From: Candidatus Hatepunaea meridiana
Lineage (GTDB): Bacteria; Electryoneota; AABM5-125-24; Hatepunaeales; Hatepunaeaceae
Assembly: GCA_030765125.1 (NCBI GenBank)
Contig: JAVCDD010000366.1
Location: forward strand, 1-52,957
DNA length: 52,957 bases
Reading direction: 5' to 3'
This document shows, in pieces, positions 1,441 through 44,717 of the stretch. Made by a program: the position numbers and the translations under genes. The stretch's first letter is position 1; each line of letters starts with the position of its first letter. The notes beneath the pieces are model-generated. The model worked only from the letters and a program-made list of their open reading frames with translations, ran no database searches and was not told the origin of the DNA.

Positions 1441-1644
1441 AGTGTCCCTGTAAAGTTATTTGTACATCCCAACACTGTCATTCCCGTGAAGACGGGAATC
1501 CAGATTGAGAGTTATCTTCTCAACTAAACTAACATACTGATTTATCAATGGAATGAACATACTAAACTTTTAAACTGGATTCCCGTCTTCACGGGAATGA
1601 CAGTGTCGGGAATGACAGTGTCGGGAATGACAGTTACGGACACT
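1441..1644. repeat. MITE-like palindromic element upstream of NRPS-1
   Basis: Perfect 29-bp inverted arms at 1475-1503 and 1575-1603 use the core CATTCCCGTGAAGACGGGAA, a variant of the core in copies 1 and 2. Short outer inverted repeats (AGTGTCCCTGTAA at 1441 and its imperfect complement ending at 1644) bound it. The right arm runs into a 15-bp direct repeat, GGGAATGACAGTGTC, at 1593, 1608 and (partly) 1623. The repeat is open in frame with NRPS-1 and creates spurious upstream ATG codons. Confidence 0.75.
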
Positions 1645-1683
1645 TCTAACAATTTTATAGGAACAATACAATTTCTAAGAAAT

Positions 1684-7600: not shown

Positions 7601-8091
7601 TAGTATTGAGTTTTAATCCGGATAGCGAACTCGATCATTGTCTGAATATGGTTAGGTCTTCTTTATCGCAGATACCTTCAAACGGAATCGGTTATGGAAT
7701 TCTCAGATATATAACGTCTCAATCATTTAAGGAAGCTCAATCGTTAAATTTCAATCCAAAAATCAGGTTTAATTACCTGGGTCATTTTAATACGGATATC
7801 GAAATAGAGGAGTTTCAGTTTATTGATTCTTATGGCGATAAAAACCAGGGAGAAAAACTGCCAGCCGAGGTTGATATCGCTTTCGAAGCAATGATTGCAA
7901 ATGGCGAGTTAAACTTTAATCTGCTGTTTAACAATCATTTATTTTCGGATATGTCAATGTTGGAATTTTATTCGGGGATACTGACTGATATATACGATGA
8001 TTTGCAAGGGTCAACGGAAGCTGCATCCGAGATTGATTCCGATGATGATATTGACGAAATGCTTGAAGATTTTGATTTGATGGATGATTGA
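1684..8091 (+). CDS. NRPS-1, modules A-T-C-A-T-E
   Basis: Two-module non-ribosomal peptide synthetase of 2135 residues, with the start at 1684 because the in-frame ATGs from 1597 lie in a repeat. Order: A1 (about 1-530, NTSGTTGDPK, YGPSES), T1 (GGTS, Ser563), C (about 620-1050, HHIIGDG 749-755), A2 (about 1077-1577, FTSGSTGVPKG, NAYGPTE), T2 (GGDS, Ser1628), E (about 1676-2106). The E domain is secure: it has HHLAVDGISWR (from His1806), EGHGRE, RTVGWFTSIYP, GIGYG and FNYLG motifs, and is preceded by the GGDS-type T domain usual before epimerases. It should present a D-residue. My hand-read ten-residue codes are DVRHLALLAK (A1, only weakly Ser-like) and DAGVVAAICK (A2, near the Phe type). It starts with A and no C, so it needs an upstream C donor. 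The last 20 residues are highly acidic, which suggests a docking tail. Confidence 0.95.
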   Translation: MNKKILNTVFESIANQNPDAIAVVDSESDISYSDLNSYANIIQNLLLQSNVDDAGIVGIYLPHSIEYIASVLGVMKSGSAFMPINPDFPDSRNIKVIQKTHPSVLITFDKYKDKLHQLFNRENLDIPIIIVPARFESLQEQTPNIPTHTPDIKQKPDDNCYIINTSGTTGDPKTIVGRHKGLSHFIHWEIGEFSIDTECKIAIFAPTTFDVSLRDIFVPLISGGTTIVPPEHIYENVTYLVDWINDNNLTHIHIVPSLFRLILTDLERRESVNSLFPNLKYILLAGEPLYGRDVNRWRGLFNNRIELVNLYGPSESTLAKCCNRLNEDSYPNDKIIPVGKPISNTAILILKDNELCPIGEIGELYIKSPFITKGYYNDPELTSQLFIQNPLNLKASDIIYKTGDLGRYLADRSIELLGRLDRQVKVNGNRIELGDIESSVLSHPNVHQCYASVVTNKSNNFIACYFTGNVNISSDDMIKYLASLLPDYMIPSFYIYLDQFPLTINGKIDKRRLPEPDEILYANISYEPPADEYEEKLADIWSQILGIKKVGVDNPFFELGGTSLSAMKLVSEIYQVFSVNLTLKDVFQSPTIRQSAEVIKSKLETEKISKILPLPQQEYYDISPAQRRVWFLHQLQGGDVVNNIPALFKGYGETDIDVLEKALNHVIQRHEALRTSFVVKGSVPVQVISDNGIEIERLRLSSSQDKDTFLKDIFRTEINTPFKLDTAPLMRCKVVKLADKEHAFLMVIHHIIGDGLSLDIIAQEMFTAYSALMEGQEPNLPELSFHYKDFSHWQNEYLQSAEGNRHRQYWHDTFKQKVEPVEFPTDYPRSAMQTFSGKTVTNEIPDHCSKGLSDLAIKKGVSLFTLLTALVKTTIYRYTGQNDITLGTAIAGRNHPDLVNQVGLFVNLVPLRDDVQGDESFKSFLSKVEKTIENSHEHQSYPYDQLVGELNLERTMSRSPLFDINITLQEDYHSFNLPSGFQIEPIEMDWEMSRYDMMFRFRQLSDEMKLDIIYNSSLFTNDTIELLHNHLMELSQSVIELPGKPIDLLNMLPLHEKELLDGFARIDDGTSEIELLVLEKIDKFTELNPDHLALSDGEAEISYGQLSKLTNGVANNLLEKQLPTETIVAMILDRTVDAIVTLIGIMKSGNVYLPIDPKFPSERIETILNQSGCKHIVTDDQYYELVREIIVPILESGNENEKSVYLISDLIHESDKRPDVVVKPESLAYLLFTSGSTGVPKGAMVEHQSLSNSIAGMVQRYGVTPQDKTLQFASLTFDASIGDIYTALTSGASLFVLPRQEMDNPVLFVEFLNNHQISFAVLPPILLRSLNQQPLPFMRALVTAGESPYNEDIEFYSKTMQYINAYGPTECSICISTHNVNDSDLNRARIPIGKPIPNMSVGVLDKNQKTVPIGVPGELYASGVSVSRGYINESELTSKYFVTIPEMSDKRAYRTGDLVRWLPDGQLEYMGRIDKQVKIRGYRIEIEEVEQALLQHPEIGDAAVIETRSEGAHKQLAAFLTRSKKVRSIQPSTDYFTPDELRRYLKKKLPEYMIPQYFMELESIPLTASGKIDRRKLDELFVTQPHQHKQADRLPNEIEAQLIKVWEAVLGRTGIGINDDFFSMGGDSIKAIQIIARLYQNNIQLSVADIFKQSTIKECAKVVKFIDKYKVQRTVTGSVPLTAIQEWFFETYGDMPHHFHQSLTLFSESRIDMNALNTALNMLISQHDMLRTVIRKEGEQIKQEILPIDAVKLDPVFKDLRGFNDLSELEKEIEGVHSSINIEHNPLINVGVFRIQGGSILHIVIHHLAVDGISWRVIMEDFTRSYLSLKLGSEDYLPVKTASFKEWSENIHTHSKSNKILNELPFWKSQASQSRIGLNYDYPNSKDGKYTLKEMEKLSYSLNSELTSRLLDMWRHKNIKTDVYLLTLFARNFLKQQNSDRISILMEGHGREELFPDIDTSRTVGWFTSIYPLVLSFNPDSELDHCLNMVRSSLSQIPSNGIGYGILRYITSQSFKEAQSLNFNPKIRFNYLGHFNTDIEIEEFQFIDSYGDKNQGEKLPAEVDIAFEAMIANGELNFNLLFNNHLFSDMSMLEFYSGILTDIYDDLQGSTEAASEIDSDDDIDEMLEDFDLMDD

Positions 8092-10147: not shown

Positions 10148-11170
10148 ATGAAAACCGGCATTATTAGACTCATCGCTGAAATCGATGAATTCAAAGGTTA
10201 CTGGAAGGGATTAAGTGTTCTTCCTGCTGAAACGCTCTCCAGGCTTCGCGTCCTTGCAACCATCGAATCAATCGGTTCGTCTACCCGGATAGAAGGGGCA
10301 AAACTAAGTGACCGTGAAGTAGAGGCGCTGCTTTCGGGGCTGACTCTCACCTCTTTTCGCAATCGCGACGAAGAGGAAGTCGCAGGATACGCCGAAGCTA
10401 TGAAGTTGATCCACGAATCACATGCTGATATGGAGTTGACCGAGAACAACATTAAGTATCTCCACAAGGTTCTCCTGCAGTTTTCGTCTAAGGATCAATG
10501 GCACTTAGGTAACTATAAGCATCATCCGAATCATGTTGCAGCTTTTGATGAAACCGGTCGCCAGATGGGGATAATCTTTGAAACCACTTTGCCTGCAGAT
10601 ACGCCGGGAGAAATGGAACGACTTGTTACAGCCCTCCGGGATGACATAGATAAAGGCGAGCTTCATCCTTTGCTGATTATTGCTGATTTCACGCTCCGTT
10701 TCCTGGCGATACATCCCTTCCAGGACGGCAATGGTCGTCTATCCCGTATTCTGACTAATCTGCTGCTTCTGCGTGCCGGCTACGATTATATCCAATACAG
10801 TTCCCTCGAACGAATGGTGGAAGCTAATAAAGATGATTACTATTCATCACTGAGAACTTCACAAACCGCACTCAAAGATGGCAGCATTGATTCAGATGTC
10901 TGGACTCTGTTCTTCCTTGAAATGCTGAAGAAACAAAAGGATCTACTTCTTCAGAAACTTGAACGGGAAAGATTGATGACCGTTCGCTCCAAGCTCTCCG
11001 CTGAAATCCTTCGCTATGCTGAAGAACAGGGACGCATTACAGTGGCACAACTCTCTGAAGCTCTTAACTCTAATCGCAGTACAATCAAATCACACCTGCA
11101 AAGACTTGTTAAAGAAGGATTATTATCCCTTCAGGGTCGAGGTCGGGGAGCTTATTATATACGTACTTGA
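10148..11170 (+). CDS. Fic family protein with C-terminal winged helix
   Basis: Product of 340 residues. The Fic core motif HPFQDGNGRLSR occupies residues 189-200, with the catalytic His189 and a complete anion-binding loop, so it should be able to transfer AMP (or another nucleotide) to protein hydroxyls. STRIEG at 45-50 matches the [S/T]xxxE[G/N] inhibitory helix of class II Fic proteins, where Glu49 would block ATP gamma-phosphate binding and hold the enzyme off. The last 65 residues form a probable winged helix-turn-helix (AQLSEALNSNRSTIKSHLQRL), which suggests DNA binding and autoregulation. It sits alone behind its own promoter and has a slightly more GC-rich sequence than its neighbours. 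No antitoxin gene is adjacent, which fits the built-in inhibitory helix. The target is unknown, and a link to the pathway is not implied. Confidence 0.9.
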   Translation: MKTGIIRLIAEIDEFKGYWKGLSVLPAETLSRLRVLATIESIGSSTRIEGAKLSDREVEALLSGLTLTSFRNRDEEEVAGYAEAMKLIHESHADMELTENNIKYLHKVLLQFSSKDQWHLGNYKHHPNHVAAFDETGRQMGIIFETTLPADTPGEMERLVTALRDDIDKGELHPLLIIADFTLRFLAIHPFQDGNGRLSRILTNLLLLRAGYDYIQYSSLERMVEANKDDYYSSLRTSQTALKDGSIDSDVWTLFFLEMLKKQKDLLLQKLERERLMTVRSKLSAEILRYAEEQGRITVAQLSEALNSNRSTIKSHLQRLVKEGLLSLQGRGRGAYYIRT

Positions 11171-12800: not shown

Positions 12801-12889
12801 AGAAATCTGGGGACAGGATACCTATTATATTTATGGTCTAAAGTTTATCAAGGAAACAAGACAAAACAGGTATATTGTTCCCGAATTTT
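12801..12889. repeat. decayed inverted repeat, GGGGACAG family copy 2
   Basis: GGGGACAGGATACCTATT at the left and an imperfect complement (AACAGGTATATTGTTCCC) at the right, with an unrelated centre. It ends about 30 bases before the DUF697-like start codon and produces a spurious upstream start at 12875. Confidence 0.6.
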
Positions 12890-12919
12890 CAGAACTCAAT
12901 AAACACAAGAGGAATTATG

Positions 12920-13393
12920 ATGGAAGAAAAACAAAAACTCGGAAAAGCGCATAAAATTGTCAAAGTTCATCTCCACAGTGCTTTAGGTGGCGGTTTGATC
13001 CCGTTTACTGGATTGGACATAGCAGCCGTGTTGGGCATTCAAATGTCTATGATAAACTCTCTGTCAAAGCTGTACGGCGTTGATTTTTCTAAAAATGCAG
13101 TGAGTTCTTCATTAACTTCACTGATTGGTTCGGTTTTGCCATTCGCCTTGTCCCGTGGAGTTTTCAACTCTCTTCTCAAGATCATCCCCCTGGTTGGAAC
13201 GACCTTAGCCAGTGTTTCAATGCCCGTATTTTCTGCTGCATTCACTTCTGCTATCGGCAGAGTGTATATTCAGCACTTTGAAGCCGGAGGCGATGTTTTT
13301 AACTTCGATCCGAAAGAAATGAAAGAGACTTTTAAGGCGGCTTTTACTGAAGCCAAGCAAGAAGTCAAGCAGGAAGTCAAAGATTCTGCTTAA
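12920..13393 (+). CDS. DUF697-like membrane protein, copy 1
   Basis: About 157 residues. AGAGG at 12908-12912 is seven bases before the ATG at 12920 (an adjacent ATG at 12917 is possible). The start also matches the paralogue at 44718, since both begin MEEK. The conserved core is GGGLIPFTGLDIAAVLGIQM, then a SMINSLSKLYGVDF segment, then long hydrophobic helices and IGRVYIQHFEAGG. The paralogue has GGGLIPIPWVDLVAVTGVQL and IGKVFIQHFETGG at the same places. The tail is charged and helical. The family is found as small membrane proteins or as C-terminal domains of GTPases; its function is unknown. It lies between a repeat element and the thioesterase gene, on the same strand. Confidence 0.75.
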   Translation: MEEKQKLGKAHKIVKVHLHSALGGGLIPFTGLDIAAVLGIQMSMINSLSKLYGVDFSKNAVSSSLTSLIGSVLPFALSRGVFNSLLKIIPLVGTTLASVSMPVFSAAFTSAIGRVYIQHFEAGGDVFNFDPKEMKETFKAAFTEAKQEVKQEVKDSA

Positions 13394-13690: not shown

Positions 13691-14356
13691 ATGATGACAG
13701 AAAAAACTAATTTAATCTGCCTGCCCCATGCAGGTGGTTATGCAGATGGTTACTCAAAACTAAAACACTATCTGGATAACAACATAGAGCAAATTCTCGT
13801 TGAATATCCCGGGCATGGAAGAAAACATAGAGAACCTTTACTAACTTCATTAGAAGAACTGGTAGATTTCGTTTATAATGAAATCAAACCATACTTAAAC
13901 ACAAAATACGCTGTCTATGGTCATAGTATGGGGGGACGCATTGCCTGGCTTGTGTCCCATAGACTGAGAGAATTGAACCTTCCACAACCCATTCAGTTAT
14001 TTATTAGCGGATGTCCGGCGCCATCCGCACCGTTTATGTCTCCTGATGATGTTGACTTTCGAACTATTTTCAATCTTAGCGGTCCGGGAATGGATGCGCT
14101 AAGGGAGATGTTTGAACCGATTATTCAGGCGGATTTAAAGGCGGTAGATGATTATCAGTATGAGACAAAAGAACCGTTATCGGTTCCAATAACGGTTTGC
14201 TATGGGCTTGAAGATGATTTTCCGGTTGAAGATTTTTTGAAGTGGGATATTGAGACCACACATAAAATAGACAGCCATGAATTTCAGGGAGATCACTTCT
14301 TCAATTTTAAGAATTTTGATAGAATAGGTGAGATTATTAATCAAACGTTGCGTTGA
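13691..14356 (+). CDS. type II thioesterase
   Basis: Alpha/beta hydrolase of 221 residues, a usual length for the stand-alone thioesterases that accompany NRPS and PKS lines (GrsT/SrfAD type). It removes wrong acyl groups or acetyl stubs from carrier-protein phosphopantetheine arms. Family marks: LICLPHAGGYADGYSKL at the N-terminus, EYPGHGRK, nucleophile elbow GHSMGG with Ser79, acid Asp175 or Asp176 in GLEDDF, and His202 in QGDHFFNF. All three catalytic residues are present. Two ATGs (13691, 13694) are possible starts, and no strong ribosome-binding site is seen. It is the only thioesterase in the window: none of the four megasynthases carries an integrated TE domain, so this protein is for editing rather than product release. 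Confidence 0.92.
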   Translation: MMTEKTNLICLPHAGGYADGYSKLKHYLDNNIEQILVEYPGHGRKHREPLLTSLEELVDFVYNEIKPYLNTKYAVYGHSMGGRIAWLVSHRLRELNLPQPIQLFISGCPAPSAPFMSPDDVDFRTIFNLSGPGMDALREMFEPIIQADLKAVDDYQYETKEPLSVPITVCYGLEDDFPVEDFLKWDIETTHKIDSHEFQGDHFFNFKNFDRIGEIINQTLR

Positions 14357-14490: not shown

Positions 14491-15771
14491 TTAGTGCGTT
14501 TGACATCCCTGGTAATAGGCTTTTACAGAATTGAAGTCCATAGATTGACCACTCTGCACTGAAGTCGGTTTAGTTCCTGCAAGAATTTCGATAGTTCTCA
14601 TTAATATCTCATCTGCAGGATTTCCAAACGCGCGAGCAGGAATTAGAGACGCCACAGGAGCGGATGAGTTAACTAAGACAACAATATTATTTCCAAGTTT
14701 ATCCTTGAACAGTGAGGCTGAGAATCCATCGATTCCGCCAATATGTCCTAATACCGGTTGGTTATCCCCTGGTGTTGGATTTTCGTCAACTATACCCAAC
14801 CCAAACGCCAAAGGCGCACCGGGAGCAACCGGTACGGTCTTAAGTCTTTCGACCTGAGTAGCGGCGGAGAGCAAATCACCATCAATCAAAGCATCCAGCC
14901 ATTTGAGCATATCGGGAGCATTTGACACCATAGCGCCTGCTGCCATAGCAACAGTTGGGCTTACAGCGGTGGCGTCATTCCAAATATCAAGCACACCGTT
15001 ACGGTCAAAATCCATATATCCATTAACGATGTCTGGTGGGTTTTCCAATTCACAGTACTCTGTTGCGGGGAGTCCGACAGGTCCGAAAACGCGCGTATCC
15101 AACTCGTGTTTAAGTGAATTGCCGGTTAGATGCTCGACCATTAGTTGAAGATAGACATATCCGGTATTGCAGTAATTCCAGGCTGTTCCCGGTTTATGAG
15201 TCAGACTGTCGGTTGTTAGAGACAACAATTGAACCGCTGTCCATACCATTGATCCATAACTGGCTTGCTGAACCATTTGAAATTCAGGTGTATGGTTGAA
15301 ATTGATCAGTCCACAGGTATGATTTAAGACCGATCTGAGAGTCATTATTGTATCGGGATGTACCGGGATCATCGCTGCGATGCTATCGGGAAGATACTTC
15401 TGAATAGCAGAGTCAAGCTCTATTGAGTCTGCATCCACAAGCTGGAGAACAACGGTTGCTACATAGGTTTTGGTGATGCTGCCAATTTTGAAACGGTCGT
15501 CCCACTCAATGTCCACGTCAAAGTTAAGATTTGCCTTTCCGGTGGTTCCAATCCAGATATCATTTCTACCAACCAGCTTGACTCCAACTAACCCGCCGGC
15601 TACCTGGAATTCAGCGATAGACCCGTCAAGCATATTCTGTATCTGATCTGCTGCTCCCGGATAAACCGAAGATGGACTGGTTGGATTACTGTCTTCATCC
15701 TCGTCACATCCTATGAAAACAAAGAAAGATACGAAGATTAATAGAAAAAGTATAGTTTTGAGTTCGCGCAT
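14491..15771 (-). CDS. beta-lactamase-fold serine hydrolase lipoprotein
   Basis: Product of 426 residues from the class C beta-lactamase/DD-peptidase family, which includes esterases and D-amino-acid peptidases. The signal peptide ends in a lipobox, FIGC, with Cys22, followed by an acidic linker (DEDEDSN), so it is a membrane-anchored lipoprotein. The catalytic SxxK is SITK at 98-101, the second motif is YCN at 200-202 (usually YxN), and the third is HIGG near residue 360 in place of KTG, as in the esterase-like branch. AAGGAG stands upstream of the start. It lies directly downstream of NRPS-2 on the same strand. Action on the exported peptide, as a maturation or resistance hydrolase, is possible but not shown; a housekeeping role is equally possible. 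Confidence 0.85.
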   Translation of the reverse strand: MRELKTILFLLIFVSFFVFIGCDEDEDSNPTSPSSVYPGAADQIQNMLDGSIAEFQVAGGLVGVKLVGRNDIWIGTTGKANLNFDVDIEWDDRFKIGSITKTYVATVVLQLVDADSIELDSAIQKYLPDSIAAMIPVHPDTIMTLRSVLNHTCGLINFNHTPEFQMVQQASYGSMVWTAVQLLSLTTDSLTHKPGTAWNYCNTGYVYLQLMVEHLTGNSLKHELDTRVFGPVGLPATEYCELENPPDIVNGYMDFDRNGVLDIWNDATAVSPTVAMAAGAMVSNAPDMLKWLDALIDGDLLSAATQVERLKTVPVAPGAPLAFGLGIVDENPTPGDNQPVLGHIGGIDGFSASLFKDKLGNNIVVLVNSSAPVASLIPARAFGNPADEILMRTIEILAGTKPTSVQSGQSMDFNSVKAYYQGCQTH

Positions 15772-15946: not shown

Positions 15947-18900
15947 TTATTGAAACTTCTTTCTAAAAGCTTCCGCATAGTCAGACTCTAAAGAATAATT
16001 GCTTATATGAAATTCTCCACCCGTAAACCCACGTTTTTTCAATGTAGTATAATTTTCAACGCAATCATCGGCTAAAGGAATACCTATCGTAGGAGTAATA
16101 TTTTCATCTTTTAACGTCAACAGGCAGGATAATACGCATCCGGTGAGATGACGAGAATTAAACCCTTCATAAGGGTCGGTATTGTTCTTGCGATAGATAT
16201 TTTGCATTTGCTCAGGTACGTAAGAAGTAACGTTCAGGTTTTCCGGTGTGAACAGAACTCCTCCCTCGGTAATAAGTATATCGGATTTATCCTGTATACG
16301 TTTAATCGCTTCCCCGATATGAAAACAGTGCGGTCCGGAGTCGTCTATAACAATCGAACCGGGCATTAGTTTTTCAATCTGTAAGATTTCCGCTACGTTA
16401 GTTGCTCCGATGTAAAAGCTAGAATCGTAGAATTGATCGGGAGGATAAGGCTGAGAGAATTGGATGTCAACCTGACCTTTGAATTTATATTCCCTTTTTA
16501 TCCGATCTTTTAAATCTTCCAGGTATTCACGCCTATTATACAAATCACACAGTATTATCTTCTTAGGATGGGGAAAGACTTGCAGCATCGAGAGCGCTAA
16601 TACAGATCCTACCGATCCTAATCCCAAAATGCCGACGTTCTCATTCTGAAATGATCTTCCTGTTTCCATAATGGTTTTTTCGATTTGTAACAGGATTGTT
16701 CCTATTGTCGTGGCGTGACCAGTAGTAATTAGTGTTGCGTCAGGTGTTAACACCTGACGCAACGTATTCGAGTTCAGGTATTTTACAATATCTTTTCCAT
16801 AGTCTGTCGCCGATGGAATCAGTCCGGTAAGTGAAATCGATTTAGCGCCGAGTTTTTCAGACAGGTCTTTAACCTGTTTGATCTCCGACAGTAATTTGTC
16901 CTTATCCTGATACATCGATCCGGTAAATCTGGGAAGAATAACGTATCCGATTGTGCCAAAATGCGTTTCGATTACATCACTGAGTATGGGAACATCTTCT
17001 ATTCTGGACAGGAATTCTTCTTCAGTAACTCTCATTGAAGTTAAAACCGATTCAGTAAAATACCCCAATGCAACCGCATCTAATCGAGGAAGTCTATTTG
17101 ATTCTATTAAGTCTTCCAACGATTGATCTGTGATGTGTAAGCGCTTTCTATCCTCGGTTAAATGTACCTTCGGGATTGGAGTGTCAACTGTCTTTGCTGT
17201 TTCAGGCTTAGGTTTCGACCTTTGATTATCTACGTACTTGGCGAACTGACGAACAGTCGGAGACGTAAATAGTTCTTTGGTAGAAACAGTAATACTTAGT
17301 TCTGACTGAATTGTATGGATCAATTGTATTGCATTCAAAGAACTGCCGCCAAGATCAAAGAAACTTGTGTCTATATCTATCGTTTCTATATTCAAGATAT
17401 TGCGCCAGATTTTGATTAAATGGTTTTCAGTATCACTGTATGATCTTTCAGCGCTCTCTGTTATTCGTGTTTCTTCTTCCGTATCCGGTAAAGCTTCGGT
17501 ATCTATCTTCCCATTATCAGTCAGCGGGAAACTTTCAACTGTTACAAACCAATCCGGTACCATATACAGCGGTAATCTTTCGCGAAGATATGATTTCAGG
17601 TCTTCAATTGACATCTCTTTTTTTTCTATTAAGTACACAACAAGCGCTTTAGTATTACCTTTGCTGCGAGTGATTACAACTGATCTGATTACATCCGGGT
17701 GTTCGTCTATAGTTGACTCTATTTCGCTTAATTCAACTCGGAATCCCCGGATTTTCACCATATTATCTGCTCTGCCGAGATACAGGATATTGCCATCCGG
17801 CAGCCATTTTCCGATGTCGCCTGACTTGAAAAGTTTCCCTTGATAAATAGTAGAAGCGACACTCTTGTCGCTTGAACTCTCGTATTTTGAAGACATTGCG
17901 CAAGCGACAAGAGTGTCGCTTCTACTATTTTTTGTATAGGGATCAGGAATAAACCGTTCTTCCGTGAGTTCTTGACTCTTGAAATATCCCCTTGCTACAT
18001 TATCGCCACCGAGATACAATTCACCGGGAACTCCAATCGGTACCGGTTGCTGGTTTTTATCCAGAATGTAAACCTTAGTATTAGGGAGGGGTTTGCCTAT
18101 AGGAATAAACTTGATATTAGATCCCGGATCATAGCTGTAAAAGGCGCTGCATACCGCTGTTTCTGTCGGACCATAGGCATTGTAAAAGTTTAAGTACCGG
18201 CTGTAATACTCTGCGTCCTCAGTACGCGCCGCTTCTGCTACGGAAGCCAGTATCCGCAGGTTTTTCAAGCAGCCTTTTCTTAAAGAAGCGATGTAACCCG
18301 GAGGTAATGTAGCTGCTGTAATTTTATACTTTTCAAGTGTTTCTTCAAATTTATTGGGATCGAGCACAACATCTCGCTGAATTGGAACCTGATGCGCTCC
18401 GAATACTAACGCCAGCAATATTTCCATAACCGAGGCATCGAAACTCAGCGAGGAGAACTGAAGCATAGTATCATCCCCGGTGAAACCCATCCGATTTCCC
18501 TGTCCCATTACTGTTGTCAGGATATTATGATGTTCGACCATAACACCTTTAGGCTTGCCGGTAGTGCCTGAAGTATAAATTACGTAGGCTAAATCACTTC
18601 CGCTAATGTGTCTTTCTGGATTTGGTGAATCCGATCTGGATATGGATTCTATATCGACAACATTCAGCGCAGGATCAAAATTAGAGAGTGTTATTTCATC
18701 AGACTTTAGCAATATCTTACATTCGCTGTCCTTAAGGATATATCGGACTCTTTTTTCGGGCAAATCACCATCAAGGGGCAGGAACGCAGCGCCGGTCTTA
18801 ACTACAGCCAGTATCGAAGCTATAGCAGCATCCGAACGGTTCATTAGAACTGCAATAATGTCATCGGGGTGGATAGAGTTTGACTCAATTAGAGTATGTG

Positions 18901-21900
18901 CGATGTCATTAGACCAACTGTTTAGTTCACTATAAGTTAATTTTCTTTCCTTGAACGATACAGCCAATTTGTCAGGATTAGCTCTGACCCGATCTTCGAT
19001 TATATCGACAACGGTCTTATCAGGCAGACTAATGCGATGTCTGTTGAAATGGTTAACGAGCAAATCTAATTCCTTATCGGGTATGTATGCGAGCCTGTCT
19101 AAAGACAATTGGTCGTCATCAAGGATACTCTGATTTAACTCGATAAAATGCGAGAGGATTCTCTCTATTGTATCGCGAGTGAACAGTGAGTCGTTGAAAT
19201 TTATAGAAGCTCTTATTTTTCCGGATGTCCATTTAAACTGGAATACCAGATCGAACTTGCTTGTTTTTTCTTCGATTGGAATCGGTTTAATTTGGTAATC
19301 ACTTTCCCACCAGGCATCATCCGAACCTTCTTCAAACACAACCATTACATTGAACAGTGAATTTTGATCCTCATATCGATCTAACCCAAGCATTTCAATG
19401 AGCAGATCATAGGGGTATAAACGATTATCGTGAGCGCGGGTTGTATTCTGTTTTACCTTCTTAAGGAACTCAGGGAATGTTGCCCAACCTTCCAGTTTGT
19501 TTCTCACAGCAAGGACATTCACATAAAACCCGATTTGGTTCTCTAAATCAGGATGAATTCTAAGACTTGTCGGCAGTCCGATAACAATATCGGATTGAGT
19601 GGTGTATTTATAAAGGAGAACATTTACCGCTGACAGCAGATACATAAAGGGAGTTACCTTATGGTTTCTGACATATTCTCTGATACGATCACCAAGCTCA
19701 TCATCAATTGTCATATTGACCGTCTGTCCTGTATCTTGTTTCTTATCGCTTCGAGGAAAGTCTGTGGGGAGGTTCAGGGGCGCCGGTTTATCCTTAAATT
19801 GATTGAGCCAATACTTTTCATATTTTCTAAAATATGGAGAATTGATAAACTGTTGCTGCCAATCCGAATAATCTTTGTATTGAACTCTTAATGCACCGAG
19901 AGGATACGATTCGTTTGATAAACAGGATTTATAAAGGATCAGTAATTCCTCAAAGAAGACGTCAATCGACTGTTCGTCGGCAATGATATGATGAATATTC
20001 AGGTAGAGAATAGATGATTTATCGCTTATCCTGAACAACTTGCATCTGAACAAGGGAGGAGCAGTCAAATTGAAAGAGGTATGCACGTCTGACCGGATTT
20101 GTTCGATGGCGTTTTTATAACCGTTCTCGTGTATAGAAGAGTATTGAGTACGCGCTTCAGCGCGTGTAATATCAGGAATATGGGGATTTGCTTCTACGCG
20201 CTGAAGCACGCACTCAATTACTTCCAAATCCACTTCAACAGAATCACAGATCACCTGCCTTGGCTCATTATCCCTCATTATGAAGGAAGTCCTTAATATT
20301 TCGTGTCTTTCTGTAAGTTTGGTAATAGCTCTTCGTAAAATATCCGGATCAATTTCTTTATCAACCTGGATTGCGCTAGGCATATTGTATTCAACCGATC
20401 CTGACTTTAGTTGGTCGATTGTCCATATCTGCTTTTGCGAATGAGATAACGGATAGTCCTCTTGACTTTCAGCAACTTCTATCCATGGTATCCCGGATGG
20501 TTTTTGACTGGCGACGAATTGATATAGTTGATTTAAGGTAGGATTATTAAAGAGGTCTTGAAGTTCCAAATCAATCATAAATTCTTTGCGAATAGCTGCT
20601 GCCAGCCGCATCGCTTTAAGGCTATGACCGCCCAGGTCAAAAAAGTCATCGTCCCAACTAAAATCGTCCCGGTTCAGTATCAACCGGTATAGTTCTTCGA
20701 GTTTCTGCCGGTTAGCCTTTCTGCTCGCATTCGTTTTTACCTGTCTTTTCTTCTGTTCCGATGGTGATGGTAGCAATTTCCTGTTAATTTTCCCGCTGCT
20801 CATAAGTGGGAACTGATCGAGGTGCATCAATTGTGTTGGTATCATATAATCGGGCAGGAATTTTTTAAGGTGGGTTTTAACATCAATAATACTATCGATT
20901 TCCTCGCCAGTGTAATAAGCAATTAAATCTTCACTGAACAATCCCGTGCCGCTAACGACAATACATCCTGTAATTCCTGGGAATTCAATAATATGATGTT
21001 CTATCTCACCTGGTTCAACCCGAAATCCTCTAACCTTGATCTGGTGATCGGCTCGTCCGAGGAATTCGATATCGCCGTTGGATAAGAACTTTCCTCTATC
21101 ACCGGTTAAATACATCTGCTCAGAATGTCCAAAGGGATTGTTAAAGAAAGCCTTTTCAGTCAGGTCAGGATTGTTATAATATCCCCTTCCAACGCCTTCG
21201 CCGCCTATATAAATATCACCCTCAACGCCTATCGGAACAGGTCTGAACTTCCTGTCCAGAATATACATGGTTTCGTTGATGAGTGGACTTCCTATTACAG
21301 GCATTTCGTCATCAATCTTCTTTGTTGTCGACCAGATAGTAGTCTCAGTTGGACCGTATACATTGAAAACCTTTGTCCCTTTCAACAAAGACAGGGTTCT
21401 ATATAAGTCCTTTGGAATTGGTTCGCCGCCTACCAGTAAAGTTTTTAGGTTAGCGAGAAATTCTGATCCAAGGTTTTCAAGTAATACTCTTAAATGAGAA
21501 GGTGTGATCTGAAGTGTATTGCATTTATGTTTTTCTAAAATCACCTGAATCTTAGCGGGGTCTTCAATTTCTTTTATATCAGCAATAAAAACAGTCATAC
21601 CAATGGTTAGAGGAAGAAACAGCTCAAGCACGGATATGTCAAAGGTATAAGTAGTCATTGCGAGTATAGTATCATCGGAATCGAGTCCAAATCTATCAAT
21701 CAAATTCGGCACGAAAGAAGATAGGTTCTTATGGGTTATCATTACTCCTTTAGGTGTGCCTGTTGATCCTGAAGTATAAAAAACATAAGCCAGATTAGAG
21801 TTGCTGATTTCTGCTTTATAAACCGGAGTGTTGAAGCTTGCTTCGGCATGCGCAAGCAAGCTTGCGCACTCCGGTTCATTAGCATCAATAGCTATTACCG

Positions 21901-23668
21901 GGACGTCTTGAATATCTTTCAATTGATCTATAACATCCGAATGCGTCAGTATTGCTTTTGGTGAGGTTTGATCCAGAATATATCGGATTCTCTCAGCGGG
22001 GTAATCCGGATCAATCGGCACATAAGCCGCTCCTGTTTTCCAGACACTTATTACACCTAAGATCATCCACTTACTGCGAGGAATTATAAGTGCAATCAAA
22101 TCGCCGTTTTTACAATCGCTTATCCTTATTAAGTCCTTAGCGATATAATTGGCAGCGCCGGTTAATTGTTGATAACTCAGTTCTTCGGATGAACTACTTA
22201 TCGCAATCTTCTCTGGGTATTTTTGGGATGTATCATCTATTAATTCTAATATGGTTCTATCATCTGAAGTTTTTTCAGTACTGCCACTATAATTGTCTAT
22301 AATGATTTTCTTTTCCTTCACGGGGAGGATTTCAATGTCTGACAATAATCCAGCCGGATCGTCTAAACAAAGTCTGAGTATTTGTTGAAAGTGTTCCCCT
22401 GTTCGAGTCATATCGTCTTCTGTATACACATTACGATTGTAAGAAAATCGAAGGTCAAGTTCTTCTCCTGGAAATATTGTCAGTTCAAGATCGTAGTGTG
22501 TTTGTTCATACATTTCCGATGAAATAATCTTGATTCCGGGCACGAATTCAGAGTTTTCAGATAATTTGTCTTTAGGTAGATTCTCAAAGACTAATATGTG
22601 TCTGAAGAGGTTCTCCCTTACTTCTGAAAGCGCTTGGATATCTGCTAGTGAATAATGAGAGTGAGGTCTCATTTCCACACTCGCATCGTGGATATTTTTA
22701 ACCAGTTTAGAAAAAGAGTCATTATCGGCTATTTGTGCTCTGAAAGGTATCGTATTTATCATTAAACCGACTACGCTTTCGATACCGATAATTTCGGACG
22801 GTCTTATCGATAAAGTGGAACCGAAGACAACGTCATTCGTATCATTATATCGGGAGAGTAATATTGACCAAATTGCATTAATCAGGGAATTTGCAGTTAC
22901 TTTGAGTTCTACGGTAAGCCGGTTTAATTGCGAGATGCGCTCTTTCTCTATGTTGATCCAATGTATGCCCAGATCGTAGGCTGATTTATTAGCCTCATCT
23001 GAAGTGTTAGGGAGAACGATTGCTTTATCATAACTTTTTAAGTAACCTTGCCAAAATTCACGGCTTTTTTCCGCGTCTTGTTTTTGTAACCAGTGTATGT
23101 ATTTACGATATTCTATTGAGGGTGGTAAAGTAACGGCTTCATTGTTTTTAAGCGATTGATAAACGGAATACAATTCGTTGTGTATTATACCTGAACACCA
23201 GCCGTCCATAAGGATATGATGGAACGTCCAGAGAATTATGTGCTCATCGGGTCTGATCTTTATTATCATTAATCTCATCGTTTCACCGACAGCGAGGTCT
23301 AACCGTCTTGTTCGTTCTTTTAGACGATATTTCTCAATTAATTCCTGCTGTTTAGTAGGGTTGTCGGTTAGGTCTTGATACTTAAAGTTTATTGCTTTTT
23401 TTGCGAGTATTACCTGGACGGGTCTTTGGCTTTTTTTATACTGAAATGCCGTTCGCAATACTTCATGGCGTTCCAGAATTATATCCCAACTCTTTGCAAG
23501 GCAGTCTATATCAAGTTCTCCGGATACATGCAGTGTCATTTGTTGAACGTAAGCCTGACTGTCTTTATCAAACAAAGAGTGGAAGAGCATTCCCTCCTGT
23601 AAAGGAGTAAGCGGAAGGATTTCGATGATGTTCTTTTTGGAAAGCAAATTCGTGGTTTTTAATCCCAT
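15947..23668 (-). CDS. NRPS-2, C-A-T-C-A-T with terminal AAR-like reductase
   Basis: Synthetase of 2573 residues. Order: C1 (about 10-440, LPLTPLQEGMLFH, HHILMDG 150-156), A1 (about 470-975, YTSGSTGTPKG), T1 (GGHS, Ser1016), C2 (about 1070-1500, HHIIADE 1226-1232), A2 (about 1555-2063, YTSGTTGKPKG), T2 (GGSS, Ser2110), and a C-terminal reductase-like domain (about 2165-2573). C1 begins with the motif typical of C domains placed after an epimerase. A1 code reads DILQLGVIWK, nine of ten residues of the known glycine code. A2 reads about DAMTAVAVCK, loosely Phe-like. The last domain has a Rossmann motif GLGSVGS near 2347, preceded by ITTGHATT and followed by VIDDSGPH and EGGVLF, and a GCVLSC segment with Cys2511. 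This order matches long-chain acyl-ACP reductase of cyanobacteria. C2 has Glu in place of the motif glycine. Four palindromic insertions lie in frame. AAAGG precedes the start. Confidence 0.93.
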   Translation of the reverse strand: MGLKTTNLLSKKNIIEILPLTPLQEGMLFHSLFDKDSQAYVQQMTLHVSGELDIDCLAKSWDIILERHEVLRTAFQYKKSQRPVQVILAKKAINFKYQDLTDNPTKQQELIEKYRLKERTRRLDLAVGETMRLMIIKIRPDEHIILWTFHHILMDGWCSGIIHNELYSVYQSLKNNEAVTLPPSIEYRKYIHWLQKQDAEKSREFWQGYLKSYDKAIVLPNTSDEANKSAYDLGIHWINIEKERISQLNRLTVELKVTANSLINAIWSILLSRYNDTNDVVFGSTLSIRPSEIIGIESVVGLMINTIPFRAQIADNDSFSKLVKNIHDASVEMRPHSHYSLADIQALSEVRENLFRHILVFENLPKDKLSENSEFVPGIKIISSEMYEQTHYDLELTIFPGEELDLRFSYNRNVYTEDDMTRTGEHFQQILRLCLDDPAGLLSDIEILPVKEKKIIIDNYSGSTEKTSDDRTILELIDDTSQKYPEKIAISSSSEELSYQQLTGAANYIAKDLIRISDCKNGDLIALIIPRSKWMILGVISVWKTGAAYVPIDPDYPAERIRYILDQTSPKAILTHSDVIDQLKDIQDVPVIAIDANEPECASLLAHAEASFNTPVYKAEISNSNLAYVFYTSGSTGTPKGVMITHKNLSSFVPNLIDRFGLDSDDTILAMTTYTFDISVLELFLPLTIGMTVFIADIKEIEDPAKIQVILEKHKCNTLQITPSHLRVLLENLGSEFLANLKTLLVGGEPIPKDLYRTLSLLKGTKVFNVYGPTETTIWSTTKKIDDEMPVIGSPLINETMYILDRKFRPVPIGVEGDIYIGGEGVGRGYYNNPDLTEKAFFNNPFGHSEQMYLTGDRGKFLSNGDIEFLGRADHQIKVRGFRVEPGEIEHHIIEFPGITGCIVVSGTGLFSEDLIAYYTGEEIDSIIDVKTHLKKFLPDYMIPTQLMHLDQFPLMSSGKINRKLLPSPSEQKKRQVKTNASRKANRQKLEELYRLILNRDDFSWDDDFFDLGGHSLKAMRLAAAIRKEFMIDLELQDLFNNPTLNQLYQFVASQKPSGIPWIEVAESQEDYPLSHSQKQIWTIDQLKSGSVEYNMPSAIQVDKEIDPDILRRAITKLTERHEILRTSFIMRDNEPRQVICDSVEVDLEVIECVLQRVEANPHIPDITRAEARTQYSSIHENGYKNAIEQIRSDVHTSFNLTAPPLFRCKLFRISDKSSILYLNIHHIIADEQSIDVFFEELLILYKSCLSNESYPLGALRVQYKDYSDWQQQFINSPYFRKYEKYWLNQFKDKPAPLNLPTDFPRSDKKQDTGQTVNMTIDDELGDRIREYVRNHKVTPFMYLLSAVNVLLYKYTTQSDIVIGLPTSLRIHPDLENQIGFYVNVLAVRNKLEGWATFPEFLKKVKQNTTRAHDNRLYPYDLLIEMLGLDRYEDQNSLFNVMVVFEEGSDDAWWESDYQIKPIPIEEKTSKFDLVFQFKWTSGKIRASINFNDSLFTRDTIERILSHFIELNQSILDDDQLSLDRLAYIPDKELDLLVNHFNRHRISLPDKTVVDIIEDRVRANPDKLAVSFKERKLTYSELNSWSNDIAHTLIESNSIHPDDIIAVLMNRSDAAIASILAVVKTGAAFLPLDGDLPEKRVRYILKDSECKILLKSDEITLSNFDPALNVVDIESISRSDSPNPERHISGSDLAYVIYTSGTTGKPKGVMVEHHNILTTVMGQGNRMGFTGDDTMLQFSSLSFDASVMEILLALVFGAHQVPIQRDVVLDPNKFEETLEKYKITAATLPPGYIASLRKGCLKNLRILASVAEAARTEDAEYYSRYLNFYNAYGPTETAVCSAFYSYDPGSNIKFIPIGKPLPNTKVYILDKNQQPVPIGVPGELYLGGDNVARGYFKSQELTEERFIPDPYTKNSRSDTLVACAMSSKYESSSDKSVASTIYQGKLFKSGDIGKWLPDGNILYLGRADNMVKIRGFRVELSEIESTIDEHPDVIRSVVITRSKGNTKALVVYLIEKKEMSIEDLKSYLRERLPLYMVPDWFVTVESFPLTDNGKIDTEALPDTEEETRITESAERSYSDTENHLIKIWRNILNIETIDIDTSFFDLGGSSLNAIQLIHTIQSELSITVSTKELFTSPTVRQFAKYVDNQRSKPKPETAKTVDTPIPKVHLTEDRKRLHITDQSLEDLIESNRLPRLDAVALGYFTESVLTSMRVTEEEFLSRIEDVPILSDVIETHFGTIGYVILPRFTGSMYQDKDKLLSEIKQVKDLSEKLGAKSISLTGLIPSATDYGKDIVKYLNSNTLRQVLTPDATLITTGHATTIGTILLQIEKTIMETGRSFQNENVGILGLGSVGSVLALSMLQVFPHPKKIILCDLYNRREYLEDLKDRIKREYKFKGQVDIQFSQPYPPDQFYDSSFYIGATNVAEILQIEKLMPGSIVIDDSGPHCFHIGEAIKRIQDKSDILITEGGVLFTPENLNVTSYVPEQMQNIYRKNNTDPYEGFNSRHLTGCVLSCLLTLKDENITPTIGIPLADDCVENYTTLKKRGFTGGEFHISNYSLESDYAEAFRKKFQ
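16734..16763. repeat. perfect 30-bp palindrome inside NRPS-2
   Basis: Half-site GTTGCGTCAGGTGTT followed by its exact complement. It is read in frame as TLRQVLTPDAT, near residues 2302-2312, just before the Rossmann fold of the terminal reductase domain. The identical 30 bases occur at 37716-37745 in the hybrid gene. Confidence 0.95.
17849..17926. repeat. hairpin insertion inside NRPS-2 (A2 domain)
   Basis: 25-bp inverted arms (AGTAGAAGCGACACTCTTGT plus CGCTT, 17849-17873; complement 17902-17926) flank a 28-bp spacer. It is read in frame near residues 1915-1940, between the GYFKSQELTEERF stretch and the TGDxG-like motif of A2, adding about 26 residues absent from other A domains. The left arm is identical to 8101-8125. 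Confidence 0.9.
20142..20216. repeat. hairpin insertion inside NRPS-2 (C2 domain)
   Basis: 23-bp near-perfect arms (ATTGAGTACGCGCTTCAGCG and complement) at 20142-20164 and 20194-20216. It is read in frame near residues 1151-1176 of C2, ahead of the HHIIADE motif, in a surface-loop region. Confidence 0.85.
21821..21876. repeat. palindromic insertion inside NRPS-2 (A1 domain)
   Basis: AACCGGAGTG...CACTCCGGTT outer arms with inner AAGCTTGC/GCAAGCTT units. It is read in frame near residues 598-616 of A1, in the variable loop just before the YTSGSTGTPKG loop. Confidence 0.8.
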
Positions 23669-23933: not shown

Positions 23934-24003
23934 CTTTGAGGGTTTGCAATTTAATTTGGTGGGTTTCACCCACCGCTATTTACATTCATTCCCTTTGGGA
24001 ATA
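23934..24003. repeat. CATTCCCTTCGGGAATG hairpin block, copy 3
   Basis: GTGGGTTTCACCCAC hairpin, CTATTTACATTCATTCCC, then CATTCCCTTTGGGAAT. As at 9952, it directly follows the GGGGACAG inverted repeat, so the two repeats form one compound unit present twice in the window. Confidence 0.75.
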
Positions 24004-24022
24004 TCTAATAAGGAATAATAAA

Positions 24023-27000
24023 ATGAAGGTTTCTAACAAAGTTAAACAACCAATCAAGAATCAAGGTCTGGTATTCATTTTCCCGGGCTTGGCGCCTCAA
24101 TGGGCTAAGATGGGCATGGAACTTTATAAAACTGAACCATTATATAGAGAAGTACTGGAAGACTTCGACAATCGATTTGCGAAATACTCCGGATGGTCGG
24201 TAATCGATGAGATAAAAAGAGAAGAAGCAGACTCGAAACTGGCTGAAGGCAAGTATGGTTGGACTTGTACCGTAGCCGTTCAAATATCCCTGCTTGAACT
24301 ACTCAAACACAGGGGCTTTAAACCTGATGCAGTTGTTGGTCACAGTGGAGGCGAGATCGTAGCTGCCTATGCCGCTCGTGTAATAGACATGGATGATGTC
24401 TTTAAATTAGTTTTTGGTTACCAGCATTTAATTACCAGTATTGAAGGTCAGGGCATATTGGCGCACATCGCTGCTGAGGCTCCGGTAGTGTCGGAATTGA
24501 TAGAGAAAGGTAACTTCGATGCCGCAATAATCGGAGATAACAGCCCCAAATCAACCTTGATTGCGGGTATTGAAAAAGATATTCAGAAAATCACCGGAAT
24601 ATTCACAGAGAGAGAAGTTTTTAACCGAATTATTAATTCTGAAGTACCTTTTCATACACGATTTGTAGCCCCGCATCAGGAACTTCTTTATGAGTATTTT
24701 GAGGGTATAAAACCCAAAGAGACTGATATTGACATCTATTCAATGGTTTACGGCAAGAAGAAGGAAGCGTTCTCTATGTCGCGTTACTATTGGGTCACCG
24801 CCCCCCGTGAGACTGTATTATTTCATCAGGCAGTACGTTCAGCCATCCTTGATGGGTACCGTAATTTTGTTGAGATCAGTCCTCATCCCATTCTGCTGTT
24901 TTTTATTGAAGAAACACTCGAATCAATCAAGACTACCGATTATAAAGTTGTTCCCTGTCTTATACGAGAAAACAATGATGTTGACTGCTTTGAGGAATGC
25001 GTAACGGATCTGCAAAATATTAAGGATGCGAAGATTGAGAAGAAAGTACCGGTAAAAACTGTTGCAGTGACAACACCAAAATCAATAACGGATTATTCTT
25101 CAGATATTACTGATAAAGAAGATCACCACGAACCGATCGCTGTTATCGGATTATCGTGCAGGTTTCCTGGTGGAGGGAATAGCCCCGAAGAGTTCTGGAA
25201 GTTCTTAATGGATTATGGTGATTCAAACATTGAAGTGCCTCTTGAGCGGTGGGATATGTCTAAATATTATTCACCCAATCCTGAAGAACCGGGCAAGTCA
25301 ATCACAAACGCAGCTCATTTCCTGAAAGGAATCGATGTCCATAAATTCGACGCCGCTTTCTTCAGCATAACTCCCAAGGAGGCTCTTTCACTTGACCCAA
25401 TGCAGAAATGGCTTCTTGAAGTTGCCTGGGAGGCTATGGAAAATGCGGCGATTCCCCCTTCAGATTTAATGGGCGAAAATGTCGGTGTTTTTCTGGGTCA
25501 AAGCGGTGATGATAATAAAGGTCGTCACCTTGAGACCGCGGATTTAATGAATATTGACAATTATACCGCATCAGGTTCTCTATTAAGTTCCGCAGGCGGC
25601 AGAATGTCGTATGTCTACGGTTTTACAGGTCCGAATATCTCGGTAGATACAGCATGTTCATCCGCCTTGGTTGCTCTCCATTTATCTATAAATGCCTTAA
25701 GGAATCGCGAATGTGATATGGCTTTTACTGCAGGCGCTAATGCGATTTTCAGACCTAATGGGTTTGTTGCTTTTTCAAAACTTGGCGCAATGTCTCCCGA
25801 TGGAAAATGTAAAACATTCGATGAATCCGCTGATGGCTTTGGAAGAGGCGAAGGATGCGGGGTTGTGATTCTTAAGCGTCTAAGCGATGCTTTACGCGAC
25901 AAGGATAATATCCGTGCAGTTATTGAAGGTTCGGCGCTTAATCAAGATGGCGACAGCCCCAGTTTTACATCGCCAAGCGAATCTGCACAAGAGGAAATAG
26001 TAAGGAAAGCGCTTAGGAATGCCGGTCTGAAACCTTCCGATATTGATTATGTAGAAGCCCATGGAACCGGAACGTCAGTCGGGGATGTTTTTGAATTAAA
26101 TGGTTTAAATAACGTATTTTGCGGAGGTAACGGTAGAGGTGAAAAGCTCACAGTCGGTTCTGTCAAGTCAAATATCGGTCACCTTGAAGGTTCAGCGGCA
26201 ATGCCCAGTATCATTAAAGTTATTTTGTCTTTGAAGAATGAAACTATTCCACCGAACATCCATTTTAATAATCCTAATCCCGGTTTCAATTGGGATGAAG
26301 GCTGCATTCAAGTTCCTACAAAAGCAAAACCGTGGAGAAGAGGTGAAAGGAAACGATATGCCGGCGTCAGCGCTTATGGTTTTTCTGGAACTAACGGCAA
26401 CGTCGTTTTTGGTGAGGCTCCGGTAGTTACGTATGAGGAAAACTCCGTAGACAGACCATTACATCTACTCACAATTTCCGCAAGAGAAGCAAAGGCGTTG
26501 GAGCAATTAACATCTAAATATGTGCAATATCTCGAAAATAATCCGTCAGTAAATATTGGCGATTTTTGCTATACCGCCGGTTCAGGAAGGGATCACTTTA
26601 ATCATCGTCTGTGTGTCTCAGGTCAAACCATAGACGATTTTAAGAAGCATCTTAATGAATTTCAAGAGAAAGGCTCGAGCCGTCAGATTCTGACCGGTAA
26701 ATCGAAAAGTAAAAAATCTCCACTGGTATTTCTTTATTCCGGACAAGGATCCCAATATTCAGGAATGACACAACAGCTTTATGATACGTACAAACCTTTC
26801 CGTGATTCACTCGACAAGGTTGATCGGATTATCCAACCTTACTTAGACATTTCACTCGTTGAATTATTTTTTGATTCCTCGCAAAAAGAACTCATCAATA
26901 GGACAGACATCACCCAACCGGCGATATTTGCCGTACAATGCGCACTGACTGAATTATGGAAGTTCTGGGGCATTGTACCCGATGCGGTTGCCGGTCATAG

Positions 27001-30000
27001 TATCGGTGAATATGCGGCTGCGGTGACTGCTGGAATTATGACACTGGAAGATGCGGCGCGCCTGGTGGTGGCTCGAGGGAGACTTATGCACAGCGCACCT
27101 GGCGATGGAGCGATGGGCGTCGTTTTTGCCGATATTAAGGACGTAGAAAAGTGTGTCGAACCGTATCTTGACAGAATTTCAATTGCGGCGGTTAATGCGC
27201 CAAATACGGTAACCATTTCAGGCGAAAACTCAACGGTTGAAGAAATTCTGAACAACTACAAGGAAAAAGGTGTCAAGGTCCGGCAACTGACGGTATCACA
27301 CGCTTTCCATTCACCTCTTATGGATTCTATTCTGGATGAATTCCGTGAGGTTGCCGAAGACGTTGAGTATTCCCTTCCGACTATTCAATTCATGTCATGT
27401 TTGACCGGCAAGGAAGAGGAAGAGAAATTCGCTTCCGCTGAATACTGGACAGACCATATCAGACAACCGGTGCTCTTTCAAGCAGGCTTTCAAGCTTTGG
27501 AATCTGCCGGATATAAGCACTTCTTAGAGATTGGGGCGGATACAACCTTAAGCGGCTTGGGCAAGCGCTGCACTGAAAGTCTGGAAACGGTCATTTTGCC
27601 GTCTTTACGCAAGAAAGACCCTAATTGGCTTACACTATTAAAGACACTGGGAACCCTTTATACTGCCGGATTTAATCCTGATTGGCGAAAATTTGATGCG
27701 CCGTATAGCCGAAGGAAACTGGAACTTCCGACTTATGCATTTCAAGGCAAGACATACTGGATGGATTTCATGCCAAAACAGAAAGATACCGGAGTTTCAT
27801 CGGTAATAGGATCATCGAAGAAATTCCTTGGTGTTGAATTGTCATCTCCTGCATTAGAAAACACGCGGATTTTCCAGAATCGATTCTCAGGTAAAACTCA
27901 TCAATTCATCAGGGATCATGTGATTGCTGATTATATGATATTCCCGGGTGCGGGGATGCTCTCGCTCATTTATTCAGCTATAAAGGATACTTACGGATTG
28001 ACTTCAGGTGTCTTTAAGAACACCGGTTTCCTTAATATGATGAGATTCAACGATGACGAAGACGTCCGCGATACTCAAGTGATTCTCAAGAAAAACCACA
28101 ATGACATCGATATGCAATTCATAAGCAAGAACCCGGCAATACATCAGGAATGGTCGGTTAACCTTGAAGGGCATTTTCAATTGGATGACAGTAGTGAGGC
28201 TGCAGAACCGTTTGAATTGCTTGAGATTGACCCGAACATGACGCTTGAACCATTTGATCCAAGTAAAATGTATGATATGTTGAGAACTATTGATAGTAAT
28301 TTCGGTCCATCATTCCGTTTGATCGATGATTTTAATCTATCTCCTGACTTATCTCGATCACGGGTTGTATTAGGCGATAAACTGAATGACGGTGTGGAGT
28401 ATGACTTTTATCCCGGCGTAATCGATGGAGTAATTGTATCGATGTTCTTATTTGATATGATTATACAACCTGAAGTGTTCGAAATGTTTGTGAGGGATAG
28501 AAAGGTAGTTGTTCCGTATGCAATTGAAACTTTCCGGTTCTACCGGGAAGCTACACAAGAAGTGGTATGCGTATCCAGGTCTAAGCTCGAAGGCGACAGC
28601 CTTTTCGCTGATGCTGATATCTTTACACCGGATGGAGAATTAATATTTCAAATTCGAGGTCTATACGGAAGAGTCATCGAGACATCGTTTATCCAGAAAC
28701 CGGATCTGACTGAGGTAGCAAATTATCTTCACAAAGTGGCTTGGATAGAGACTCCTTATGAAGAGTCGGAAGAAATCCGGACGGAACAACAATGGATGCT
28801 TGTAAATCACGGGATTAACCAACTCTCCGAAAAAATAAAACTGTCTCTTGAGCAGGACAAGCATCAGGTTACATTAATCGAAAGCAACGAAATCCAGGAC
28901 AGGTTGACATCCGGCAAGTTCGACGGAATAGCCTATCTTGCAGCGACGCCAGATAGTGAAGACAACGGTGAAATACCAAATCAAGTTGATAATCTGCTTC
29001 ATGATGCTCTTGGCTTCGCTCAAGCGTTAATCGCTGCCGGTTATCAGGATCAGGTTTACTTTGTTACTCAGGGTGTGCATTCACTACATCCAGAGACTGA
29101 AGAACCGAACCTTATCGAGGCTCCTTTATGGGGCTTTGGTTTGACGCTTGAGAAAGAGTTCCCTGAACTTAATTGTATCTGTATAGATGTATCCCGTTCC
29201 CTTGACGATTCTGAGGTTCAGCAGCTTTGTAAGGATTTGGCGGACCCAGGCGTTCACGACCAAATTGCAATCAGAGGTTCGCAGCGAAGCGTTGCTAAGT
29301 TTGCCAATATAGAGCCCGAAGATAAAAAATCGCTGAAATCGCCTGCTATGTTGGAACAAGACCTGTTCCAAGAGGATGCTTCCTATATGATTACAGGTGG
29401 AACAGGTGGATTAGGACTGACATTGGTTGACTGGATGGTTGAAAAGGGAGCCGGAAAAATCATTCTGACCGATATTAAGAATGAAGATGATATCGATTTA
29501 GATTTGAAAGAGCTTGCAAAAGGTGAAAAAACAGAAATCATTTACATCCGTTGTAATGTTTCCGATGAAGGTGAGGTGAAGGATTTATTTGAGCAAATCA
29601 AATCCGTTAATCCGCCTCTAAAGGGTGTTTTCCACCTCGCAGGTGTGGTAGACGACGGTGTGATTCAGGAGCAGACGATGGAAAAATTCCGGAGGGTGCT
29701 TGCCCCTAAAGCCAACGGAGCATTCTATCTTCACCAGGCAACAGAAGCAATGGATCTGGATTATTTTGTAATGTTCTCCTCCATAGCTTCAGTAATGGGG
29801 AGCCCCGGACAAGCCAATTACAGTTCCGCCAACCGTTTTCTCGATTCGCTGGCTGAATATCGTCGTCAAAAAGAGCTTCCCGCCATTAGTGTCAATTGGG
29901 GTCCCTGGAAAGACGTCGGTATGGCGGTTGTTTCAGATAAACGCGGCAAACGTATAGAAGAGATGGGAGTATCAAGTTTGTCCGCTTATGCGAGCACTAC

Positions 30001-44619: not shown

Positions 44620-44717
44620 TACGAAAGTTTAGTATTGCAGGTCATACGAAGGTTTTAATTTAATATTATATGAAACTGCAAAATAAATCATCTAACATAT
44701 TTCTGAAAGGAAACAAT

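Follow-up and report, generated by a model that had tools for sequence, protein, structure and literature searches.

Domain Organization of NRPS-2

How does a non-ribosomal peptide synthetase (NRPS) release its product when it ends in neither a thioesterase nor a classic reductive (R) domain? The question is raised by NRPS-2, a 2573-aa protein encoded as one unbroken frame at 15947–23668 (minus strand) of the window, by which is meant the whole stretch of 52,957 nucleotides that was analyzed. ORF translation and Pfam matches (two Condensation, two AMP-binding, and two PP-binding) indicate the order C-A-T-C-A-T, and by domain order NRPS-2 is the last module of the assembly line. A C-terminal domain with the fold of acyl-ACP reductase (AAR) completes the protein. 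Beyond residue 2156, Pfam gives no match at the curated cut-off. A thioesterase (PF00975) fused to NRPS-2 was not detected with Pfam, and the classic R domain (NAD_binding_4, an extended SDR) was undetected in the terminal domain even at E 10; likewise, none of the four megasynthases has a Pfam match to a thioesterase or to NAD_binding_4.

The terminal domain consists of residues 2165–2573 (about 410 residues; 15950–17176, minus strand), and the stop codon of NRPS-2 lies at 15947–15949. The last carrier domain has an LGGSSL motif starting at residue 2106, which, together with the PP-binding match, places the phosphopantetheine serine at Ser2110 (codon 17339–17341, minus strand). All sequence blocks named in the original prediction (ITTGHATT, GLGSVGS, VIDDSGPH, EGGVLF, and GCVLSC with Cys2511) are present in the C-terminus, and its numbering of Ser2110 and Cys2511 agrees with the NRPS-2 translation.

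Fold and Superfamily of the Terminal Domain

An AlphaFold2 model of the terminal domain, built from a 57-row alignment (A2), has a pLDDT of 91.1 and a pTM of 0.92, whereas single-sequence folding reaches a pLDDT of only 35. When the model was compared with known structures using Foldseek, all ten chains of the carmabin TAD (see below) ranked first (TM about 0.90, rmsd 2.1), followed in a second tier by all seven AAR chains (E 9e-15 to 8e-13, TM 0.56–0.68). Amino-acid dehydrogenases trail well behind, with E-values roughly seven orders of magnitude poorer than those of AAR. The model and the AAR matches (E ~1e-14) bear out the earlier proposal of an AAR-like fold in place of an SDR-type R domain. 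In a profile–profile comparison (hhalign) of A2 with five AAR sequences (E 1.7e-6), Cys2511 (codon 16136–16138, minus strand; GCVLSC) corresponds, as had been proposed, to AAR Cys294, a cysteine in 5/5 AARs, and is the predicted acyl-accepting residue.

Family models place the domain outside AAR itself. The NCBIfam PigE model (NF053554) matches all 57 aligned members and the AAR model (TIGR04058) matches six, the strongest TIGR04058 match of any member having an E-value of 3.2e-5. The NRPS-2 domain scores 35 bits with the PigE model, below the cut-off of 850 bits, and is unlisted with TIGR04058 (cut-off 449.7 bits) even at E 10; no dedicated Pfam or NCBIfam model for a TAD-type domain matched. 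The AAR-like fold thus marks the domain as a relative within the AAR superfamily, not as an AAR family member. AAR (TIGR04058; 6jzu, 6jzy) shares with the NRPS-2 domain its fold, block order, and catalytic cysteine column, but identity is about 17%, and AAR is a free-standing, NADPH-dependent fatty-acyl reductase that has DGGYPKN where the TAD family has DDSxPHCF and lacks an Asp ending strand 2. The thioester reductase domains of PigE and TamH belong to the same superfamily, but, unlike the NRPS-2 domain, are fused to aminotransferases and form aldehydes. The classic NRPS R domain resembles the NRPS-2 domain in position and release role.

Relationship to the Carmabin TAD and to HcaD and VatR

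A phmmer search of PDB sequences matched two distinct chains over almost the full length (about 400 residues) with an E-value of 4e-79. The best match in both sequence and fold is entitled "TAD from Carmabin Biosynthetic Pathway" (PDB 9e4s, 9e4u, 9e4x, 9e50, 9e56; released 2025-02-26); we read TAD as terminal amidation domain, the PDB titles carrying the abbreviation only. The NRPS-2 domain is 35% identical to 9e4s (phmmer E 4e-79, TM 0.90). The deposits include complexes with NAD and NADH and a disulfide between Cys2238 and dephospho-CoA, and Cys2238 of 9e56 is assumed, by analogy with AAR, to be the equivalent of Cys2511. A full-length match of this strength to a crystallized NRPS terminal domain, together with a cysteine that is unchanged in 60/60 sequences, argues that the terminal domain is not a product of chance. 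The carmabin TAD has the cysteine, the NAD(H)-type Rossmann site, the DDSGPHCF loop, and the NRPS-pathway setting in common with the NRPS-2 domain, but it comes from a marine cyanobacterial clade, another subclade, and another assembly line.

Domains of this kind have been discussed in two further pathways. HcaD, of the hectoramide B pathway, has no thioesterase, and the C-terminal domain that follows its PCP was described as a putative amidation domain, 83.5% identical to that of VatR of the vatiamide pathway (PMC10949194, 2024). Such domains are believed to offload the peptide by amidation, with a primary amide as the proposed product; an amide likewise terminates carmabin A as well as vatiamides E and F (PMC10949194). 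An enzyme assay on any TAD was not found in the literature searched. HcaD and VatR are tied to the family of NRPS-2 through a Moorena protein (locus L009, 1962 aa), which has the HcaD/VatR layout (C 77–526, A 547–892, methyltransferase about 1060–1160, PCP 1467–1528, TAD 1559–1958) and a TAD 90% identical to 9e4s. Compared through L009 only, the "amidotransferase" domains of HcaD and VatR are terminal, follow a PCP, and occur without a thioesterase, as in NRPS-2; unlike that layout, NRPS-2 has no detected N-methyltransferase domain. With the carmabin TAD structures and the HcaD and VatR domains already described, the earlier statement that no NRPS with this terminus was known does not hold, and we judge the NRPS-2 terminal domain to be an intact, sequence-divergent member of the carmabin-TAD family, not a new kind of domain.

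Distribution and Conservation of the Family

In one scan of a genome collection, relatives of the terminal domain were found at 61 loci (L numbers), spanning some eleven phyla by the labels stated in the sequence records, many of which are binned genomes. They occur as NRPS ends after a carrier domain or as separate small proteins. A TAD-type domain is the last in its ORF in essentially all intact cases, and a carrier domain lies directly upstream in 45 of 47. Separate small proteins are found in Pantoea, Erwinia, Hahella, Robbsia, and Rickettsia; at Rickettsia L056, the TAD-like ORF starts 28 bases past an NRPS whose last domain is a carrier. The domain is carried by two of the 39 genomes examined from the window's phylum, homologues are present in only two plasmid records, and no phage homologue was found. 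A release domain that we found described only in marine cyanobacteria is now linked to about eleven phyla, and the NRPS-2 member comes from a phylum with few sampled genomes, its own being a draft.

Cys2511, Asp2375, Gly2349, Gly2351, Gly2354, and four residues of the family signature DDSGPHCF (residues 2442–2449; 16322–16345, minus strand), namely Asp2442, Asp2443, Ser2444, and Pro2446, are invariant in 60/60 sequences; 58 of them have His2318, and 55 have Cys2448. These signature residues could enable genome mining to recognize TAD-type domains. In a tree that has long branches and unsure deep placements, the window's domain forms a group (SH-aLRT 95) with the L031 domain and those of two Neomarinimicrobiota loci, away from the TADs of Moorena and Okeania.

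Some of the loci have features of their own. The separate Rickettsia protein is encoded at L056 9962–11164, where it adjoins a PKS-NRPS, and at L054 416–1630. Of the stand-alone TAD-like genes (L003 13557–16014; L039 9878–11176), which Robbsia, Hahella, and Erwinia have as well, that of Pantoea comes after a gene for a MupA/Atu3671-type luciferase-like monooxygenase. A PKS-NRPS of Streptomyces fungicidicus (L004 14800–16137) ends in a very divergent relative with 29% identity, in which DDSxPHCF and the cysteine are kept.

Cofactor Preference

In Rossmann dehydrogenases, a preference for NAD(H) is usually signaled by an Asp that ends strand 2. Asp2375 (codon 16544–16546, minus strand; LCD) closes Rossmann strand 2 in the AlphaFold2 model (residues 206–212 of the domain), where it predicts a preference for NAD(H) over NADP(H); the NAD(H) site in the NRPS-2 domain is seen as the Rossmann motif and this invariant Asp only. 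AAR has no such Asp. With the Asp invariant and the relatives solved with NAD and NADH, the NADPH of the original prediction is unlikely. From its sequence, the NRPS-2 terminal domain would be expected to use NAD(H).

Release of the Peptide

NRPS-2 has the fold, the family membership, the position after a carrier domain, and the conserved cysteine and dinucleotide site of a carmabin-TAD-type domain. We read it as a terminal release domain of this family, a branch of the AAR superfamily found in NRPSs, in which Cys2511 would capture the peptidyl thioester and the peptide would leave most likely as a primary amide. Transacylation, the identity of the cofactor, ammonia as the nucleophile, and any redox role of the bound NAD(H) are what we infer. 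The peptide on the phosphopantetheine of Ser2110 would pass to Cys2511 as a thioester, as AAR and the TAD–CoA disulfide structure suggest; this thioester would sit beside bound NAD(H), to which the invariant Rossmann site and the structures of the relatives point; and ammonia may then attack it to give a C-terminal primary amide, the ending known from the carmabin pathway and from those of hectoramide B and vatiamides E and F. Conserved active-site residues point to chemistry that is shared across the family, so that amide is favored over aldehyde, and the product predicted for NRPS-2 moves from an aldehyde to probably an amide. Several points weigh against this reading: the amide role of TADs is itself a proposal; the invariant dinucleotide site is odd, being unexpected for plain ammonolysis; the domain has an identity of only 35% with the carmabin TAD and belongs to another subclade; and TamH, the nearest outgroup with an assay, makes an aldehyde.

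Release as an aldehyde had been predicted originally: NAD(P)H would reduce the Cys2511 thioester, and the freed aldehyde might be reduced further or cyclized. We now regard this outcome as the less likely of the two, because primary amides are what the pathways of the named, closest relatives give. It would fit the AAR fold found with Foldseek, the alignment of Cys2511 with AAR Cys294, and the matches of the PigE model to 57/57 members and of TIGR04058 to six, and the NADH-dependent domain of TamH, the nearest assayed outgroup and of the same superfamily, reduces acyl-ACP to an aldehyde (PMC9594044). However, the DDSxPHCF loop is unlike the DGGYPKN of AAR, and the neighbors annotated with Pfam include no partner that would process an aldehyde, neither a free-standing aminotransferase nor an alcohol dehydrogenase.

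One unlikely explanation for an invariant NAD(H) site in an amide-linked domain is redox-neutral amidation: bound NADH would reduce the cysteine thioester as far as an aldehyde, and after the addition of ammonia the newly formed NAD+ would regain the hydride, so that an amide is left. Mechanistically, this is a special case of amide release, and the likelihoods given to the two overlap. It would account for the invariant site and fits the solved NAD and NADH complexes alike, but would be superfluous if ammonia attacks the cysteine thioester directly. Extended to the family, the idea of a widespread (about eleven phyla) NRPS release family with an AAR fold, in which NAD(H) acts as an internal hydride shuttle that turns a thioester into a primary amide with no net redox, is just as unlikely. 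A weak similarity to amino-acid dehydrogenases and SbnB would fit a domain that is inactive or serves amino-acid-dehydrogenase-like editing, with release by the stand-alone thioesterase or hydrolysis. This is improbable, since Foldseek prefers AAR, the domain's cysteine and dinucleotide site are invariant in 60/60 sequences, and it is terminal and follows a carrier domain.

Loss of an extra C-terminal amino acid that leaves an amide was also considered and dropped, as the module count of HcaD equals the residue count (PMC10949194).

Gene Cluster and Neighbors

Pfam and motif matches delimit the remaining megasynthases, all on the plus strand: NRPS-1 (1597–8091; A-T-C-A-T-E, with an EGHGRE motif near the end), which probably acts just upstream of NRPS-2 in the assembly line; a PKS (23936–30535; AT-KS-AT-DH-KR-ACP); and a PKS-NRPS (34903–44394; KS-AT-ACP-aminotransferase-C-A-T-C). 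Judging by the order of the domains, the putative product of the cluster is a beta-amino acyl pentapeptide, which NRPS-2 would release. A stand-alone type II-like thioesterase (13691–14356, plus strand; PF00975) and a 4′-phosphopantetheinyl transferase (50045–50686, plus strand; PF01648) are also encoded.

Directly downstream of NRPS-2 lies a gene for a lipoprotein-like serine hydrolase (14491–15771, minus strand; PF00144) that has the beta-lactamase fold and SITK, YCN, and HIGG motifs. A 39% identical protein is also encoded directly after the NRPS in the same-phylum relative (L031 11190–12449; L002 2762–4021). Within the window's phylum, the two genomes that have the domain thus share this order, a TAD-ending NRPS and then the hydrolase. 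The hydrolase possibly has a role in self-protection or product processing. The relative (L002/L031/L066) also has in common with the window DUF697 proteins, an ABC protein, a Band 7 protein, a periplasmic binding protein, the thioesterase, and the phosphopantetheinyl transferase.

TAD clusters of the window's phylum and of Neomarinimicrobiota repeatedly encode DUF697 proteins (window 12875–13393 and 44670–45332; L031 2891–3634 and 12659–13153; L036 2910–3644); in L031 and L036, one DUF697 gene lies between a ParA/MinD-like ATPase gene (directly 5′) and the NRPS. The start of NRPS-1 carries a 15-base repeat (1592–1634, 2.9 copies) that yields MTVSGMTVSGMTVT and three in-frame start codons. A TPR-CHAT protein in the cluster (31865–34732) has a 120-base internal repeat in nine copies, and the protein encoded at 10148–11170 combines a Fic domain with a winged helix at its C-terminus.
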